A stretch of DNA of 64,000 nt from Fibrobacter sp. UWP2. GTDB taxonomy: Bacteria > Fibrobacterota > Fibrobacteria > Fibrobacterales > Fibrobacteraceae. Position 1 is the stretch's first letter, and each line of letters opens with the position of its first letter. Where the stretch lies: contig NZ_FQYM01000001.1 of NCBI RefSeq assembly GCF_900141705.1, positions 372,001-436,000 on the forward strand, in the 5' to 3' direction. The notes under the pieces are model-generated. The model did not search any database, had not been told where the DNA came from, and saw nothing but the letters and a program-made list of their open reading frames with translations. Both the position numbers and the translations under genes were made by a program. Positions 18,306 through 25,914 of the stretch are shown here, in pieces.

Positions 18306-19055
18306 ATGAAGCAGAATTCTCTGCATACCGGCATTCGTTTTTACGCAACCTCGGTCACAACCATGGTCGTATTTTGTCTTATGCTGACGGCAACGCTCGT
18401 CGGTTGTCTCGACATCCCCGACGCCCCGGACTCGAACCGCCGCATTGAATACGCCAACGTCTATGTAGTGCAAAAGGGGATTTCGGATTCGACGACCCTC
18501 AAAATACACCCTTCCGACCCAGCGACACTCAAGGTGGACGTATACCCCAGGCAATACAAAAAGGAACTCTCTTTTGAATGGTTCCGCACGGGAATATTTG
18601 CCGATTCCTCGGACCTCAAGAGCGTCGGGACGGGGGACGAGTTCGTCATCGACGAAGAAACCGCACCAATATTCATCCCAAATACTTTACAAATCACCGA
18701 CCAGCAGGGAAACTCCATGACAGTCAAATTCAATGTCATCGTGAACACCCCGCCCAAAATGGACTCCGTCACAACCCCTGCCAACAAGGACACTCTATAC
18801 GGGACCCTCTCGACTTCGTTCCCGTTCACGTGGGGCGCCACCGACCCCGACCTGCGTTACGAAGACTCGCTCTCCTACGTTTTGATTATCGACTCCGTCT
18901 CCTACGACATTGGTTCGCTGACTCAAATCATGCAGTCCGGTTTTAACGAAGGGGCTCACACGTTCCAAGTCCTTGTTTCGGACTCCCACGGAGACTCCGA
19001 CACACTGCCGGTTTGTCATTTTTACGTAGTAGACACCCTGGGAGGCAAAAAATGA
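18306..19055 (+). CDS. envelope lipoprotein 1 of a tandem set
   Basis: 249 aa. An unusually long N-region precedes the hydrophobic core and lipobox LVGC (Cys near residue 34). The mature part is Asp/Ser/Thr-rich and beta-rich. After about residue 140 a fibronectin-like segment begins with NTPPKMDSV and includes FTWGATDPD, a pattern shared with the next two gene products. The downstream gene starts in an ATGA overlap with its stop, so translation is coupled. No known family is recognised; a cell-surface or periplasmic adhesion/assembly role is inferred from the locus. Confidence 0.75.
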   Translation: MKQNSLHTGIRFYATSVTTMVVFCLMLTATLVGCLDIPDAPDSNRRIEYANVYVVQKGISDSTTLKIHPSDPATLKVDVYPRQYKKELSFEWFRTGIFADSSDLKSVGTGDEFVIDEETAPIFIPNTLQITDQQGNSMTVKFNVIVNTPPKMDSVTTPANKDTLYGTLSTSFPFTWGATDPDLRYEDSLSYVLIIDSVSYDIGSLTQIMQSGFNEGAHTFQVLVSDSHGDSDTLPVCHFYVVDTLGGKK

Positions 19056-20599
19056 AGTACTGGTTACTCATTGTCTCCCTGTTCATTTTCGCCTGCACCA
19101 ACAGCGACGACTACCTGTACAACGAGAACGATGTCAACGAAGTCACCATTAGCGCCCAAATGGCACTCGACATTGACTCCATCAGCATCCAGATCAAGGC
19201 AGACACAGTGCAGCTCGGCGATACCATTATTTTTATTGCCGAAGTCAAGCCTTCCAAGTCCATCCGTCTACAGCACTACTACTGGACTTTGGACGGCGAG
19301 CACTTCGCCTCTGAATTCAGCTTCCGCAGGGCGATTACCAAACCAGGGCACCACAAGGTGGCCCTGGTCCTAATAGACTACTTTGGCGACACACTCTCCG
19401 ACACGCTCCAAATATGGGTTACCAAGCCGCCTCTGCTCAACGAAAACGTTTTTATCCCGGCCAATGGTTCGCAGGGGCTCCCCACACAGGGCGGCATTTC
19501 GTTTGCCTGGAACGCCTACGACCCCGACTCCATTTACAAAGTCCACAATCACTTTACGCTTACCGATTTTAGGGGGGACATTTTGGTCGACACCATTGTT
19601 CCTGGGAACGTGTTTACCTACAACGAACCGTTGCAACCACTAAAGCGCTACGATTGGCAAGTCTCCGCCATCAACGAGCTCGGCATGCCATCCAACGACT
19701 CCCTCTCAGGCCACTTCTTTACCCAGGGCGTCCTCGGCGAATCCGGGATAACCGGGAGCGTGCAAATCAAGGAACTCGATCGTTTTTTTTGGTCCTGCCT
19801 TCTTTCTATATACGACACCACCGGGCAGTTGCTCCAAACAGACACCATCAATCACAGGTCCGCACGTATCACCCCCTTCCTGGTTTCTCCGGTCAAGGCA
19901 GGGAACTACCAAATTTCAATATCCCTGTTGAACCACCCTCACTATCAAAGCAACCTCAAAAAAATTTCGCTTCGTGAAAACGAAATCAAGGATATCGGCA
20001 ACATCACGTTGATCGACACCATCAAGCCTTCCATCGATTTGATTGGCGCCCACAACGGCGACACCATCGACTTTGCCGACACCCTCTTTTTTACCTATGA
20101 CTCACTGGAAGACAAATACTCCTACTACCGCGCCGCACAAATTGACGGGCAAACTATTGACATAAAAATCAAAGACAACCAACTGTACACAGTCATCCCC
20201 AGGAGTTTCCAGTCCTTCCGCCATACACTCTTGACCGTAACCGCAAAAGACAGATCCAACAACGAAACCGTCAGGAACTACTATATTAGGCCGTCCTTAA
20301 AATGGTTTGCCTGCAACAGCGACACCACCTTGGGCGACAGCACCGTTTTAAAGATTTTCATAGAAGACCAAAATCCATACGGGTTTGTGCCCGAGGTGTT
20401 CCTCTTTAGCATTTTCAAAGATTCAAACCCCATCGCAGCCGGCTACAATGGCCAAAACAGCTACAGTTTTTTGATTACGAGCGCGCTCTTCCCCGACTCC
20501 GTAAACTACATGCGCACGGGCATACGCTACACCAACGGCATTACGCAATGGTCCGACTGGACCGTATACCGCAAATTTGGGGAGGGTGGCAATGAATAA
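19052..20599 (+). CDS. envelope lipoprotein 2 of a tandem set
   Basis: 515 aa from the ATG at 19052, which overlaps the previous stop (ATGA). Lipobox IFAC near residue 14. The mature region carries several Ig/fibronectin-like modules. One begins with TKPPLLNENVFIPANGS and contains ISFAWNAYDPDS, matching the module in lipoprotein 1; another near residues 215-330 looks like a carboxypeptidase-regulatory-type sandwich (ESGITGSVQIK). Composition is rich in Asp, Ser, Thr and Tyr. The largest of the three, it overlaps the next gene by 8 bases. Function unknown. Confidence 0.75.
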   Translation: MKYWLLIVSLFIFACTNSDDYLYNENDVNEVTISAQMALDIDSISIQIKADTVQLGDTIIFIAEVKPSKSIRLQHYYWTLDGEHFASEFSFRRAITKPGHHKVALVLIDYFGDTLSDTLQIWVTKPPLLNENVFIPANGSQGLPTQGGISFAWNAYDPDSIYKVHNHFTLTDFRGDILVDTIVPGNVFTYNEPLQPLKRYDWQVSAINELGMPSNDSLSGHFFTQGVLGESGITGSVQIKELDRFFWSCLLSIYDTTGQLLQTDTINHRSARITPFLVSPVKAGNYQISISLLNHPHYQSNLKKISLRENEIKDIGNITLIDTIKPSIDLIGAHNGDTIDFADTLFFTYDSLEDKYSYYRAAQIDGQTIDIKIKDNQLYTVIPRSFQSFRHTLLTVTAKDRSNNETVRNYYIRPSLKWFACNSDTTLGDSTVLKIFIEDQNPYGFVPEVFLFSIFKDSNPIAAGYNGQNSYSFLITSALFPDSVNYMRTGIRYTNGITQWSDWTVYRKFGEGGNE

Positions 20600-21983
20600 G
20601 TTACGCCCTCTGTTCCTCTTTGCCACGGCGGCTTTGCTCACGCAAGCCCTTTGCAGTTGCGGCGACGATTCCCGCTTTGAAGCCGGGAGCGTCCCCGTGA
20701 TTGGGCAATACATTTACATGCTCCCCGAAAGGTCTTATGGCGAACCCTACAATTACGGGTTCCCGTCCAAAAGGTATTACCTAGACACAGGGGAAGTCAT
20801 CAAGTTCGCAGCGGCTTATTCCCTAGGCGACGTCTTTATCACCAGTGATGAAGCTGACCTTTACATATTGGGCAAAAACTGGGATGTTGACGGGAACAAC
20901 TTCAACCTTACGTCGTTCCGCTATTCCTTTGAAAAGGCCGGACGGCACCTGGTCATATTGCAATCAACGGATCTCGCCGGCGACACCATCACCGACACCG
21001 CCGAAGTCTACGTAAACACGCCCATCTCGGTCACCATCACCAGTCCCGAGAACGGGAACAACCTCGTGGACCCCCATTCAAAAGAAGGCGTTGACCTCAA
21101 GTGGGTTGTGCAGGGGACAGACGAATGGGAAACCGCGTCCTGCGGCATTTTTGCATCCCTAAACAAGGATGACGTATGGGAATCGCTGCAGGCCACCGGC
21201 GCCTGCAATAAAAACGGGCACATTTCCGGTCCATTGTTCCCACAGGCTTTGGGCGACTCCTCCGTCACCGTCTACTGGGGCATTGCAGCCATCAACTCCA
21301 CCAACGACGGCTTCTCTGAAGAAAAGAAAACCCCCATTTACCATTTCACCACAAAGTTCGTCGGTTCCGATTCCGCCCGCATCACCATCCCCATTTACTA
21401 CGACAACCTGTGGGGTTACGACCGCGTCAACACGCAAATCACCGTTGTGAATTCGTCACAAGACACCATTGGCACCTACAACAGCACACTTGCCGAAACA
21501 AGCTTTGACATTCGCGTACTCCCGCAGTCAGGGTTGCACATTTACCTCGAAGAAACCATGAAAACGGACTTCCAGAGTTCGCCATACTCCAACGAATTCA
21601 CCCGCACCGCCAATATCGAGATGAACGTAACTGCCCCCTCGCTTTACACAACCGACACCGTCGTATTCTACGACAAAACGCCCCCCGTCGTCACTCCGCT
21701 TCAAAACGTTTTTTCGCCAAAGGATATGCTCGCTTTCTACATTTTGGACAACGGCTCCGCAGTCAACCCGTCGCACATCTCGGTAATAACCGATTTCGAC
21801 ACACTTGCCTACACCTTTGAACCGCCTATAGTCACATTTGAAAACCCGTGCGCCGTATCGTGCAATGTCAAGATTATCGCACGAGACTACAGCCGGAACG
21901 AGACCCACAACATTTATTGGCACGTCGACAACAGCGCAGATTCTGCCTCCATAAGCGGTCCTTTTTTAGAGAGGGGGATGTAA
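20592..21983 (+). CDS. envelope lipoprotein 3 of a tandem set
   Basis: 463 aa from the ATG at 20592, preferred to an upstream in-frame start at 20577 because it gives a normal signal peptide with lipobox LCSC. A GGAGGG sequence sits just upstream. The mature part shows the shared module (VNTPISVTITSPENGNN then VDLKWVVQG) and further beta-rich repeats. It abuts the next gene with no intergenic bases. Paralogy with the two preceding lipoproteins is visible by eye but weak, so divergence is old. Confidence 0.75.
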   Translation: MNKLRPLFLFATAALLTQALCSCGDDSRFEAGSVPVIGQYIYMLPERSYGEPYNYGFPSKRYYLDTGEVIKFAAAYSLGDVFITSDEADLYILGKNWDVDGNNFNLTSFRYSFEKAGRHLVILQSTDLAGDTITDTAEVYVNTPISVTITSPENGNNLVDPHSKEGVDLKWVVQGTDEWETASCGIFASLNKDDVWESLQATGACNKNGHISGPLFPQALGDSSVTVYWGIAAINSTNDGFSEEKKTPIYHFTTKFVGSDSARITIPIYYDNLWGYDRVNTQITVVNSSQDTIGTYNSTLAETSFDIRVLPQSGLHIYLEETMKTDFQSSPYSNEFTRTANIEMNVTAPSLYTTDTVVFYDKTPPVVTPLQNVFSPKDMLAFYILDNGSAVNPSHISVITDFDTLAYTFEPPIVTFENPCAVSCNVKIIARDYSRNETHNIYWHVDNSADSASISGPFLERGM

Positions 21984-22631
21984 ATGAACAAGCCAATCAT
22001 TTCCATTCTCGTACTCCTCCTTGGTTTTGCCGCCGCCATGGCGCAAAGCCCTACAGATAGCGTCCAGCTCCAGCCCAAGTACCTGCACATTTCCACCAAT
22101 CCCTCGTATGCCGACGCCTACATCAACAACACCAAGCCGAACCACGCCAGCGAACCCGACTACAAGCTTCCAGGCTTTATCGAAGTGCCCGCAGGCGAAT
22201 CCAGTATCCAGGTCACCTTGTTCCGCCCCGAGTTCGCCGACACCAGCATCAACGTCCAGCTATCGCAAAAAGACACCTCTTTTTTGATTGTAGCGCTCCG
22301 TCCCCATTACGACGAAGCAAAGACCGAAAAACAGTACGGCGAAATTGCGCACCGCGACCGCCGCAAGCTCGGTCACAAACTTTTGCTCACTTCCCTCGCC
22401 CCCTTCTTAATGAGTGGCATCTCGGCAATTGTGTCGTGGTACAACATAGAGCAGGCGAACCGCAAAAAAGACGACATCAAAAAAACGCTTATTAAAGATG
22501 ACGAATATCAAAAATCGCTGGACCAATTCCTCGACTACCGCGAATCGGCGCAAAACGCACGATACCTGGCGCAGTTCGGCCTTGTTCTTGGCGGAATCAT
22601 TTTTACAACCGGTGTAGTATTTTCATTTTAG
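21984..22631 (+). CDS. PEGA-domain envelope protein with C-terminal two-helix tail
   Basis: 215 aa. A signal peptide (cleavage near AMAQ) is followed by a PEGA domain (about residues 28-105: YLHISTNPSYADAYIN, then PAGESSIQVTLFR). PEGA domains are beta-rich modules found in surface-layer and envelope proteins. The C-terminus has two hydrophobic helices (about 132-150 and 190-215) separated by a charged loop of about 40 residues with coiled-coil character. The same tail architecture recurs in the next gene product and in the protein at 57069-58400. It lies directly downstream of three lipoprotein genes. Confidence 0.8.
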   Translation: MNKPIISILVLLLGFAAAMAQSPTDSVQLQPKYLHISTNPSYADAYINNTKPNHASEPDYKLPGFIEVPAGESSIQVTLFRPEFADTSINVQLSQKDTSFLIVALRPHYDEAKTEKQYGEIAHRDRRKLGHKLLLTSLAPFLMSGISAIVSWYNIEQANRKKDDIKKTLIKDDEYQKSLDQFLDYRESAQNARYLAQFGLVLGGIIFTTGVVFSF

Positions 22632-22638
22632 GTGCTAT

Positions 22639-24186
22639 ATGAAAAAACTTCTCGCAATATTAACCTTCCTACTAGCGACTTCCGCCTTCGCCCAAGGGCA
22701 ACAGGGTCCCAAAGTCAATGTGGAATTGGTTTCGGGTACAAAGCAGTCGGCCCAGTTTTTGGGCATCCAAAACGACACCGTCCAGCTGGGCGGCTACATC
22801 AAGAACCAGTTTACCGTAATCCGCCTCCACAAAGACAAGTTCAAGAGCATTGTCGACGAGCAAGGGAACGACCTGCTGCACCCAGCACCGGCAGCAGTCC
22901 CCGCACAAGCCGACACCGCCACCGTGACGGCCGTTGCTGATTCTGCGGCTACGGATTCCACCGACCTCGCGACAGCCGCCGCACCCGCGACACAAACCTG
23001 GAGCGGCAACATATTTGTCTCGTTCGAGGGAACCTACGCCGACACCCTCCTCTCGCAACAACTGACGGCGATCGCCGCAACGCTATTGTACGAGGCCAAC
23101 GAGCAAGTTCAAATCATTAGGCGCAGCGACATCCCCGAATGTCACGACAACATTTGCATACAAAACACTCTGTTGCATGGCGGCGCCAAAAACGTCTACG
23201 TTGGCAAAATGGGCGCAGGCTCCACCCCCGACAGCATCGGGGTCGAACTCTCCAAGGCGACCCTCCACGACGACCTGCCTGAAATCTACATGTCCAAGAT
23301 AAACGTCGCCAAAAATGCCGCCTTGAGCAGCGCTATAGAAAACAACAAAATGAAGGTCCTGCTTATGCAGGCTAAGCCCGAACCCGAAGCCATCCCCGCC
23401 CCAAAGACCAGCTACATATCGGTAGAAACAACCCCCGAGGGCGCCACTGTTTCGCGCCCCGATATCAACGCCATTTGCCGGACACCCTGCACCTTCCCCA
23501 CGCGCGATACAAACAAAATAACGCTCAATGCCTATTGGAACGTGGGTGAACAACTGTGGGGTGCGCAAAGCGTCATTCGTCCCATCCCAGGCGACACAAC
23601 CAAGGTGAACATCAAGCTCAAGCCCATCTCGCCCGAGATCCACGTGATATCCACCCCCTCCGACGCTGAAGTGTTCGCCGGTTCCGCCCCTATTACCAAG
23701 CACAGCGAAACACTCATCAAAACCCCAGGCAAGTTCCACTTGAACGACCCGGGCATGGCAAACATCACGCTCCGTCGCGCCGGTTACAGAGACACCGTTG
23801 TTTCGTTCTATGTGGCTCCAGTCGCCGAGACCCGCCTCAACATCGAGATGGAACGCATTACCAACGTTGACGACATCGCCAAACAAAAGGAATGGGAACA
23901 CGACCGCACCATGCTCCGCGTAGGGCATATTTTAATGGGGACCTCCATAGCCCCGCTTATCATGGGAGCCATATTCGCCTACCTGGGCAGCCAAGACTAT
24001 GACGACGCCGACGAGATCAAGAGCCAGCTCCAAATGCCGGGATCCTCGTACGGAGAGAACTTCCAGAACAAGGTCAAAAAGAACCACGACTTGGTCGATT
24101 CGGGCGATAAAAAAATGATTATCGGCGCATCGCTGGCCGGAGCGAGCGTAATTCTCTTTGGAGTGGGCTTTTTCCTCGCTTTTTAA
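22639..24186 (+). CDS. two-PEGA envelope protein with CsgG-like middle and two-helix tail
   Basis: 515 aa. After a signal peptide (cleavage near AFAQ) comes a small beta domain (NVELVSGTKQSAQFLG), an Ala/Thr linker, then an alpha/beta segment (about 120-250) whose run AIAATLLYEANEQVQIIRRSD resembles the N-terminal part of CsgG/TolB-N-type domains. Two PEGA domains follow (about 255-335 and 340-415). The C-terminus is a two-helix hydrophobic tail with a charged loop, as in the preceding protein. It begins 7 bases after that gene. A scaffold that links envelope layers is a reasonable guess, not established. Confidence 0.78.
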   Translation: MKKLLAILTFLLATSAFAQGQQGPKVNVELVSGTKQSAQFLGIQNDTVQLGGYIKNQFTVIRLHKDKFKSIVDEQGNDLLHPAPAAVPAQADTATVTAVADSAATDSTDLATAAAPATQTWSGNIFVSFEGTYADTLLSQQLTAIAATLLYEANEQVQIIRRSDIPECHDNICIQNTLLHGGAKNVYVGKMGAGSTPDSIGVELSKATLHDDLPEIYMSKINVAKNAALSSAIENNKMKVLLMQAKPEPEAIPAPKTSYISVETTPEGATVSRPDINAICRTPCTFPTRDTNKITLNAYWNVGEQLWGAQSVIRPIPGDTTKVNIKLKPISPEIHVISTPSDAEVFAGSAPITKHSETLIKTPGKFHLNDPGMANITLRRAGYRDTVVSFYVAPVAETRLNIEMERITNVDDIAKQKEWEHDRTMLRVGHILMGTSIAPLIMGAIFAYLGSQDYDDADEIKSQLQMPGSSYGENFQNKVKKNHDLVDSGDKKMIIGASLAGASVILFGVGFFLAF

Positions 24187-24230
24187 CCATATTTTCGACC
24201 CATAGGCCACCCTTTTTTGTAAATAAATCC

Positions 24231-24243
24231 TAAATTTGTAGTG
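24231..24243 (+). promoter_or_regulatory. -10 box of the barrel/repeat protein gene (near-leaderless)
   Basis: TAAATT at 24231-24236, six bases, predicted +1 one base before the ATG at 24244. Confidence 0.5.
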
Positions 24244-25914
24244 ATGCGTAGAATTTTATTTACTTTATTGCTTCTCACGGTGGCGGCCTCCGCTGCCGAC
24301 TTTGAGCGTTCCAATTGGCGAATGCAGTTGTATTTGCAGGCCGAACCTGCAATCCTTGTTTTTGAAGATTCCGACCCCCAGTTCCTAGTCGATAAAGACT
24401 CCAAGAAAGGTCTCGTCACCCGCGAGATCGACGAGGAAATGTTCACGGTACCGCTCTCCATGGGCTTTTTGTGGAGCCCGCTCATCACCCCGTTCTGGAA
24501 GGCCGACATTCCGTTCACCCTTTGGCTGGGTGCCGAACTCAACACCTTTATTTTTAACTTCAATTCTAAGAACTTTGGCGACATTTTGAGCGATGACCGC
24601 TATTACTTTGATGGGGCATCCAACTCTAGCACCTGCAACGACACAGATGGGTGCAAAAGTGACGACCAGACTCTGAGTTTCCGCTCTTACGCCCCGTCTG
24701 TGCTAGCCGGTTTCACCTTCAATATTGGCGGTGACTTCGACCTCAGGGTTTTGGGCGGCTACGGTTTCCAGTTCTTCACCTTCACCAACGACGTTCAGGG
24801 CACCCAGCGTGACGTGACCGAATACGCCCCCACGGCGTTTGTTTCGGGCGCCTTGGAATACCGCATTACCGAAGTATTCCAGGACGTGGACCTCAAGGTC
24901 GCCATCAACGTACGCAAGGAGTTCCTGCCCTACGAAGACTTCAAGGCGACAAACAAGGTCAACGAAAAAACAATCGAAGGGCTCCCGCCTGCATACTCCG
25001 GAATCGAATTCGACAAGATTTCTTACAAGTACCCGGTCCGCGTCGGTCTTGAGTTCTCCCTCGACTTCGGCCGCGAGAGCCGCCGTGACCGCCGCATGCG
25101 CTACAAGCTGCACGACCGCGACGACGTGCTCCGCCAGAACAGCGAAGTCAAGGACACCCTTTCTGACTGGGACTGCATGGCCATCGAGCGCGACTACCGC
25201 TTCTTCCTCGACGAAGACGGCGAACTCCCCGACATGAGCGAAGCCTACACCCGAACCCAGTTCAGCGACGTGCTCGAGAGCTTCCTCGCCTTCTGCCACC
25301 CGGCAGACCTCGCCACCAAGGAAAAGCTCTATGCGACCTTGGATACCGGTAAGGTGCAGTTGAAGGAATACCAGGTCCGCCAAGAGGATTCCCGCTTCGA
25401 CCAGGTCATGGCGTCCAACGACCCCGAAATGCTTGAGATGTACTTGGAGTACTACCCCGACTCTCCGCGTCGTAGCGAGGTCGAAGCCAAAATCAAGACC
25501 CTGAGCGAATACCACAAGTTCCGTGAGATCCAGGCCCAGAACACCTTCAAGGCCTACCTCATCTACTTGAACGACAATCCCGATGGCGCCTTCCGCGACG
25601 AGGCTGAAGCCGGCATCTTTGAACTCGTCAAGAGCGGCAACCGCCTCAAGGACTACGAGATTTACCTGAAGCGCTTCCCCAACGGCAAGTACGTTGAAGA
25701 AGCCAAGGCTGCGCTCAAGGCGGCTAATACGACTGAACCCTCCATGATCGAAGTCCAGACTCCGGAATACGCCGAACCCGAACCGCAGGTCGAGGAACCG
25801 GAGGAAGAACCCGAAGAGGAAGTCGCCCCCAAGAAAAAGAGCCGCAACGCCAAGAAGGCTGCAGCCAAGGCCAAAAAGAAATCTTCTGCCAAAAAGAAAG
25901 GCAAGAAGAAGTAA
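24244..25914 (+). CDS. outer-membrane barrel protein with helical repeats and Lys-rich tail
   Basis: 556 aa. A signal peptide (ASAADF cleavage) is followed by a barrel-like region (about 20-280) with alternating aromatic strands. A helical region (about 380-500) reads like YbgF/TPR-type repeats (EMYLEYYPDSPRRSEVEAKI, then AYLIYLNDNPDGAFRDEAEA). The C-terminus is acidic (EPEPQVEEPEEEPEEE) and then switches to a tail of almost only Lys, Ala and Ser. Such a tail could bind peptidoglycan teichoic-like or nucleic polymers, but this is speculation. It has its own promoter 58 bases after the PEGA operon and may belong to the same envelope assembly. Confidence 0.8.
   Translation: MRRILFTLLLLTVAASAADFERSNWRMQLYLQAEPAILVFEDSDPQFLVDKDSKKGLVTREIDEEMFTVPLSMGFLWSPLITPFWKADIPFTLWLGAELNTFIFNFNSKNFGDILSDDRYYFDGASNSSTCNDTDGCKSDDQTLSFRSYAPSVLAGFTFNIGGDFDLRVLGGYGFQFFTFTNDVQGTQRDVTEYAPTAFVSGALEYRITEVFQDVDLKVAINVRKEFLPYEDFKATNKVNEKTIEGLPPAYSGIEFDKISYKYPVRVGLEFSLDFGRESRRDRRMRYKLHDRDDVLRQNSEVKDTLSDWDCMAIERDYRFFLDEDGELPDMSEAYTRTQFSDVLESFLAFCHPADLATKEKLYATLDTGKVQLKEYQVRQEDSRFDQVMASNDPEMLEMYLEYYPDSPRRSEVEAKIKTLSEYHKFREIQAQNTFKAYLIYLNDNPDGAFRDEAEAGIFELVKSGNRLKDYEIYLKRFPNGKYVEEAKAALKAANTTEPSMIEVQTPEYAEPEPQVEEPEEEPEEEVAPKKKSRNAKKAAAKAKKKSSAKKKGKKK

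Follow-up and report, generated by a model that had tools for sequence, protein, structure and literature searches.

The window analysed here, a stretch of 64,000 nucleotides from contig NZ_FQYM01000001.1 of Fibrobacter sp. UWP2, contains at positions 18306-25914 six open reading frames on the forward strand, with xseB divergent on one side and a DedA gene downstream. The first five, which very probably act together as one unit, encode three predicted lipoproteins (genes 1 to 3) and two proteins with PEGA-type domains and a C-terminal pair of hydrophobic helices (genes 4 and 5); the sixth is adjacent to this conserved unit and lies outside it. Gene 1 (18306-19055) overlaps gene 2 (19052-20599) by 4 bases and gene 2 overlaps gene 3 (20592-21983) by 8, while gene 3 abuts gene 4 (21984-22631), and gene 5 (22639-24186) lies 7 bases further on. 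The six frames and the tight junctions among genes 1-5 had been reported in a preliminary description of this DNA and were found again, the gap between genes 5 and 6 (24244-25914) being 57 bases instead of 58 when counted from the ATG at 24244. Export of all six products, also proposed there, agrees with a lipobox cysteine in genes 1-3 and signal-peptide-like N-termini in genes 4, 5 and 6.

The locus was taken from 33 genomes of the genus for comparison of gene order and junctions. Genes 1-5 lie between xseB and DedA in identical order in 33/33 genomes, with mostly the same junctions (-4, -8 or -1, about 0, and +7), a few script-chosen starts giving odd values. Profiles of genes 5 and 3 were run against 168 genomes of the phylum, and gene maps were drawn for 15 loci. 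The cassette was near-universal in the family, and the maps show the five-gene form in nine of its genera (g1, g16, g18, g19, g20, g21, g22, g23 and g24), gene 5 of the g21 copy being interrupted by a contig end. In g16 and g21 the order is kept although the flanks differ and neither xseB nor DedA is a neighbour. A three-gene form, found in g15 and g17, encodes a PEGA protein like that of gene 5 but lacking the N-terminal barrel, together with two short lipoproteins that resemble genes 2 and 3. One genome (G111, 65% complete) has neither the cassette nor gene 6. Synteny in relatives, set beforehand as a refuting test, holds in order and spacing across the genus and the family.

Orthologues share a median 31-44% identity with the window sequences in genes 1-5, compared with 70% in gene 6 and 62-90% in the neighbouring genes. 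The fastest to diverge are genes 1-3 (median 31-41%), which fits the expectation for surface proteins.

In g16 and g21, two genes precede the cassette, one regulator-like and one for a membrane protein with a single helix (L080:13627-15765; L087:4288-5752), a possible regulatory pair, and the regulator-like gene of g21 scores TIGR02147/DUF4423. In a g17 genome, a gene resembling an extracytoplasmic function (ECF) sigma factor by eye (L081:9890-10357) divergently adjoins the reduced three-gene cassette. Such neighbours speak for a signal-transducing complex, in which the lipoproteins would sense the envelope or a substrate and signal via the hairpin proteins to a regulator. However, neither in the window nor elsewhere in the genus is a regulator linked to the cassette, and regulator-lipoprotein pairs are also found away from it (L023), and we consider this explanation very unlikely.

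The preliminary description proposed one undescribed envelope system of six genes. The proposal stands for genes 1-5, which are syntenic and match no characterised system in Pfam, NCBIfam or the PDB, and fails for gene 6, which was ruled out as a member: of the genomes of the genus that were searched, 19 lack it altogether and 18 of these carry the cassette, it is unlinked in g16, where it lies on another contig, and its rate of change is different. At the locus itself it is missing in 5/33 genomes. Gene 6 encodes an outer-membrane barrel, helical repeats and a Lys-rich tail. The barrel was supported by Pfam OMP_b-brl in 12/30 orthologues (best E 3.7e-5), whereas the YbgF-like repeats described earlier were visible by eye only and gave no Pfam score. 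A promoter of its own had also been suggested, but none was listed at 24187-24243 by a promoter scan, which is a weak scan. Gene 6 is highly conserved, yet a whole set of genus genomes lacks it.

Genes 1-3 are paralogues, predicted to be built of Ig/PKD-like sandwiches. Profile comparison with hhalign gave E values of 6e-13 for genes 1 and 2, 1e-7 for genes 1 and 3, and 3e-28 over the full length for genes 2 and 3. The common module described for these lipoproteins is therefore real, but the DPD of its pattern (K/N)(T/P)P...P.N...F.W...DPD is of a kind general to Ig/Fn3-like domains, and gene 3 does not retain it. Gene 1 (249 residues) has one PKD/Ig-like and one Fn3/Ig-like domain, with Cys34 followed by LDIP. 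Gene 2 (515 residues; Cys15, then TNSDD) has 4-5 beta-sandwich domains and a variable C-terminus, and its orthologues range from 425 to 651 residues, differing between species by whole domains. The AlphaFold2 (AF2) model of gene 3 (463 residues; Cys23, then GDD) shows about four Ig-like sandwiches in a row (predicted local distance difference test, pLDDT, 89). Foldseek was uninformative on the identity of this fold, giving only generic Ig tandems (complement, cadherin, S-layer and SGBP-B) with template modelling (TM) scores near 0.2. Weak Pfam matches of the lipoprotein orthologues were to PKD, bacterial Ig and carboxypeptidase-regulatory-like domains. Across the lipoprotein genes, between 18000 and 22000 of the window, G+C drops to about 51%, from 58-61% in the metH/ABC region upstream.

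Tandem Ig/PKD domains form rods. The lipobox cysteine is invariant in all aligned orthologues (33-35 per gene), and acidic residues follow it at +3 in genes 1 and 3 and at +5/+6 in gene 2, with 88-97% of orthologues acidic at the main position. This acidic stretch resembles the surface-export signal of Bacteroidota, in which such a stretch after the cysteine can direct lipoproteins to the surface (PMC5080379). With this tether after the lipidated cysteine, the three lipoproteins would probably be located on the outer face of the outer membrane.

Genes 4 and 5 are homologous, having the PEGA module and the helical tail in common (E 1.7e-22), as proposed earlier for the two-helix tail. PEGA domains are sandwiches found outside the cell or in the periplasm. 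Pfam PF08308 (PEGA) matched 34/35 gene 5 orthologues (best 1e-12), while the assignment in gene 4 was made via homology to gene 5 only. Gene 4 has a signal peptide, one PEGA-type domain, two hydrophobic helices and a C-terminal Phe. FSU_1783, a Fibrobacter PEGA protein from a glucose-grown proteome (20 kDa), was rejected as gene 4 because it is too small. In gene 5, a signal peptide without lipobox, found in 35/35 orthologues, is followed by a Sm-like barrel (residues 25-73), a linker, a CsgG/PelC-type domain (122-244), PEGA1 (257-330), PEGA2 (332-403) and a helical hairpin. In the AF2 model of gene 5 (pLDDT 79), accordingly, a disordered linker connects the small Sm-like barrel with an alpha/beta domain, and two PEGA sandwiches and helices follow; Foldseek on the parts of this model returned Hfq-like, PelC/TolB/GNA1162 and carboxypeptidase transthyretin-like structures. 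The Cys pairs C168/C173 and C280/C284 are invariant in the orthologue alignment, and the C-terminal Phe is found in each of the 69 orthologues of genes 4 and 5. A gene 5 paralogue on the same contig but outside the window (L023:9839-11446) has the PEGA-hairpin tail and the terminal Phe, is kept genus-wide and resembles the sole f2 copy; by eye, it adjoins a pair resembling DUF1007 and a nickel permease.

Gene 5 carries a divergent CsgG/PelC-type domain, a remote assignment that relies on profile and model comparisons. Although Pfam CsgG gave no match in the 35 gene 5 orthologues, Foldseek with residues 122-244 of the AF2 model, which is of moderate confidence, returned TolB, the PelC dodecamer (prob 1.00) and GNA1162. 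The middle domain with its family relatives matched the CsgG domains of 19 phylum homologues by hhalign (E 1.5e-5; control 0.6), and both have a C-x(3-5)-C motif. The closest gene 5 homologues outside the order (G051 and G077) contain Pfam CsgG and PEGA, with CsgG profile matches in phylum homologues of 2e-10 and 3e-8.

Relatives of CsgG and PelC form rings at the outer membrane. Together with the PelC dodecamer among the best structural neighbours and the CsgG matches in the phylum, this raises the idea of an export apparatus, in which a ring of gene 5, with gene 4, would conduct secreted protein or polysaccharide as CsgG does for curli and PelC for Pel, and the lipoproteins would gate or decorate it. 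We consider it unlikely: the inspected loci had no recognisable gene for a curli subunit, a polysaccharide synthase or any other cargo, and the lipid anchor and pore strands of CsgG are replaced by PEGA and the hairpin. The G051 homologue scores LpoB (6e-6) besides CsgG (2.7e-8), which would suit a regulator of cell-wall or outer-membrane tethering. Here the CsgG/LpoB-type domain of gene 5 would regulate a peptidoglycan enzyme or tie the outer membrane to the wall, the lipoproteins being periplasmic spacers or sensors, and the near-universality of the cassette in the family agrees with such a housekeeping function. Nevertheless, no peptidoglycan-binding domain (OmpA_C, SPOR or LysM) was found in genes 1-6 or in the scanned orthologue sets, and the fast divergence and changing domain number of the lipoproteins suit surface exposure better; we consider this regulator an unlikely explanation.

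A long PKD lipoprotein is encoded just after each of the CsgG-type genes of G051, G077 and G087, with a FISUMP domain at its end in G051 and G087. CsgG-type hairpin proteins were gathered from nine genomes of seven families (f4, f5, f6, f8, f9, f10 and f12). In an automatic test, a CsgG-type, mostly PEGA, hairpin gene was followed directly by the gene of a predicted lipoprotein, mostly of PKD or FISUMP type, in 15/18 testable cases against a background of 26/161 among other genes, and in 16/18 with L121 counted by eye. The Fisher p of 1e-8 is indicative only, as the test was chosen after the first cases had been seen and several cases come from one genome. We read the cassette as an enlarged form of an ancestral, phylum-wide pair of a CsgG-type hairpin protein and a PKD/FISUMP lipoprotein. 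Many of the lipoproteins beside the CsgG-type hairpin genes (L104, L108, L109, L113, L115, L118 and others) have variants of NP-x-D-x-x-G-x-x-[WY]-x-x-P after the cysteine, possibly a sorting or docking signal.

The presence of the related pair in distant families means that the core function need not be specific to cellulose. This bears on a further explanation, that the cassette is a cellulose-adhesion apparatus of fibre degraders and part of the OmpA/TPR/fibro-slime complex. The Ig/PKD modules of the lipoproteins would agree with it, as would the surface multi-protein complexes on cellulose that Fibrobacter envelope proteomes show (PMC6851124); however, no carbohydrate-binding module scored in the Pfam and orthologue scans, and we assign this explanation a low probability.

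Co-conservation, gene order, paralogy, domain make-up and the signals for export and lipidation are supported directly by the sequences. The role in adhesion, secretion or envelope anchoring that the preliminary description suggested is an inference. We tentatively favour a mechanism in which a membrane-anchored platform assembles or displays the three Ig-rod lipoproteins, a proposal built on predicted domains and analogy. Gene 5, aided by its partial paralogue gene 4, would form this periplasmic platform, with the CsgG/PelC-type domain oligomerising like its structural relatives and the PEGA modules serving as spacers or binding arms. Lipoproteins 1-3 would be carried to the outer membrane, probably to its outer face, and would stand upright as rods of Ig-like domains. 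The platform would assemble, retain or export these rods, which may give the family a surface structure of its own, serving contact or scaffolding.

Several observations weigh against this mechanism. Gene 5 is assigned to the CsgG type by remote similarity only and its model is moderate (predicted TM score, pTM, 0.42), and hhalign of the domain against two CsgG homologues, a poorer profile, gave only E 0.06. Neither the gene 5 paralogue at L023:9839-11446 nor the f2 homologue (L024) has a lipoprotein neighbour. The lipoprotein is downstream in the distant pairs and upstream in Fibrobacteraceae, so the orthology of the lipoprotein partners is a candidate only. In addition, the charge before the first hydrophobic helix is +4.6 in gene 4 and +2.3 in gene 5, with a near-neutral loop of 44 residues, and with a periplasmic N-terminus this violates the positive-inside rule. 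If the signal peptide is cleaved, a positive stretch before the helix is the opposite of what a hairpin in the inner membrane should have. Alpha-helical outer-membrane assemblies exist, as in Wza. If the PEGA hairpins were located in the outer membrane, as a ring around the CsgG-type platform that moves or holds the Ig-rod lipoproteins at the surface, both the reversed hairpin charge and the invariant C-terminal Phe would be explained, but we regard this arrangement as quite unlikely.

In the guts of herbivores, Fibrobacterota belong to the main degraders of fibre. To our knowledge, their envelope biology is poorly known and the route of their lipoproteins to the surface is not settled. A near-universal family cassette with a two-gene relative in the phylum is a small, defined target for envelope biology, and the phylum-wide pairing gives a handle on the numerous FISUMP proteins of unknown role. 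If the platform does display the lipoproteins, the phylum would have its own surface-lipoprotein display system. The location of the hairpin, in the inner or the outer membrane, would be the most useful single fact for the mechanism.

A match to a known system had also been set beforehand as a refuting test, and Pfam, NCBIfam and PDB gave no sequence match of the window genes to a characterised apparatus, known secretion apparatuses included. For type IX secretion, no sorting domain or Por/Spr component was found in genes 1-6 (Pfam, NCBIfam). The openly licensed literature held nothing relevant on PEGA with CsgG, TIGR02147 or Fibrobacter CsgG, and neither the cassette nor the pair is described in the searched passages of three Fibrobacter envelope papers (PMC6851124, PMC4619616 and PMC4704652), a mention in supplementary tables being possible. 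The modelled alpha/beta fold of residues 122-244 of gene 5 resembles that of the CsgG, PelC, LpoB and TolB-N proteins, but gene 5 has no Pfam CsgG match, lipid anchor or nearby curli or Pel genes, and it adds the Sm-like barrel, two PEGA domains and the helical hairpin. CsgG of curli secretion is a lipid-anchored beta-barrel pore, whereas the signal peptide of gene 5 lacks a lipobox and the protein has a helical hairpin; no CsgA/B or CsgE/F genes were recognised at the inspected loci. Sus-type SGBP-B of Bacteroidota, which is among the Foldseek matches of gene 3, resembles the lipoproteins in its tandem Ig-like domains on a lipid anchor and its acidic stretch, but the cassette lacks SusC/SusD, a glycan-binding domain and enzymes, and the matches are those generic, low-scoring Ig tandems. 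The OmpA/TPR/fibro-slime complex (PMC6851124) is likewise an outer-membrane-associated multi-protein complex of the same genus; none of its domains occurs in genes 1-5, and gene 6 is more reminiscent of it but separable. FISUMP lipoproteins (Fib_succ_major, TIGR02145) differ from genes 1-3, which have no FISUMP domain, and are partners of CsgG-type hairpin genes, by profile in G051 and G087 and by eye in G056. The cassette is made of known domain types in an arrangement that the papers and family libraries searched do not describe.

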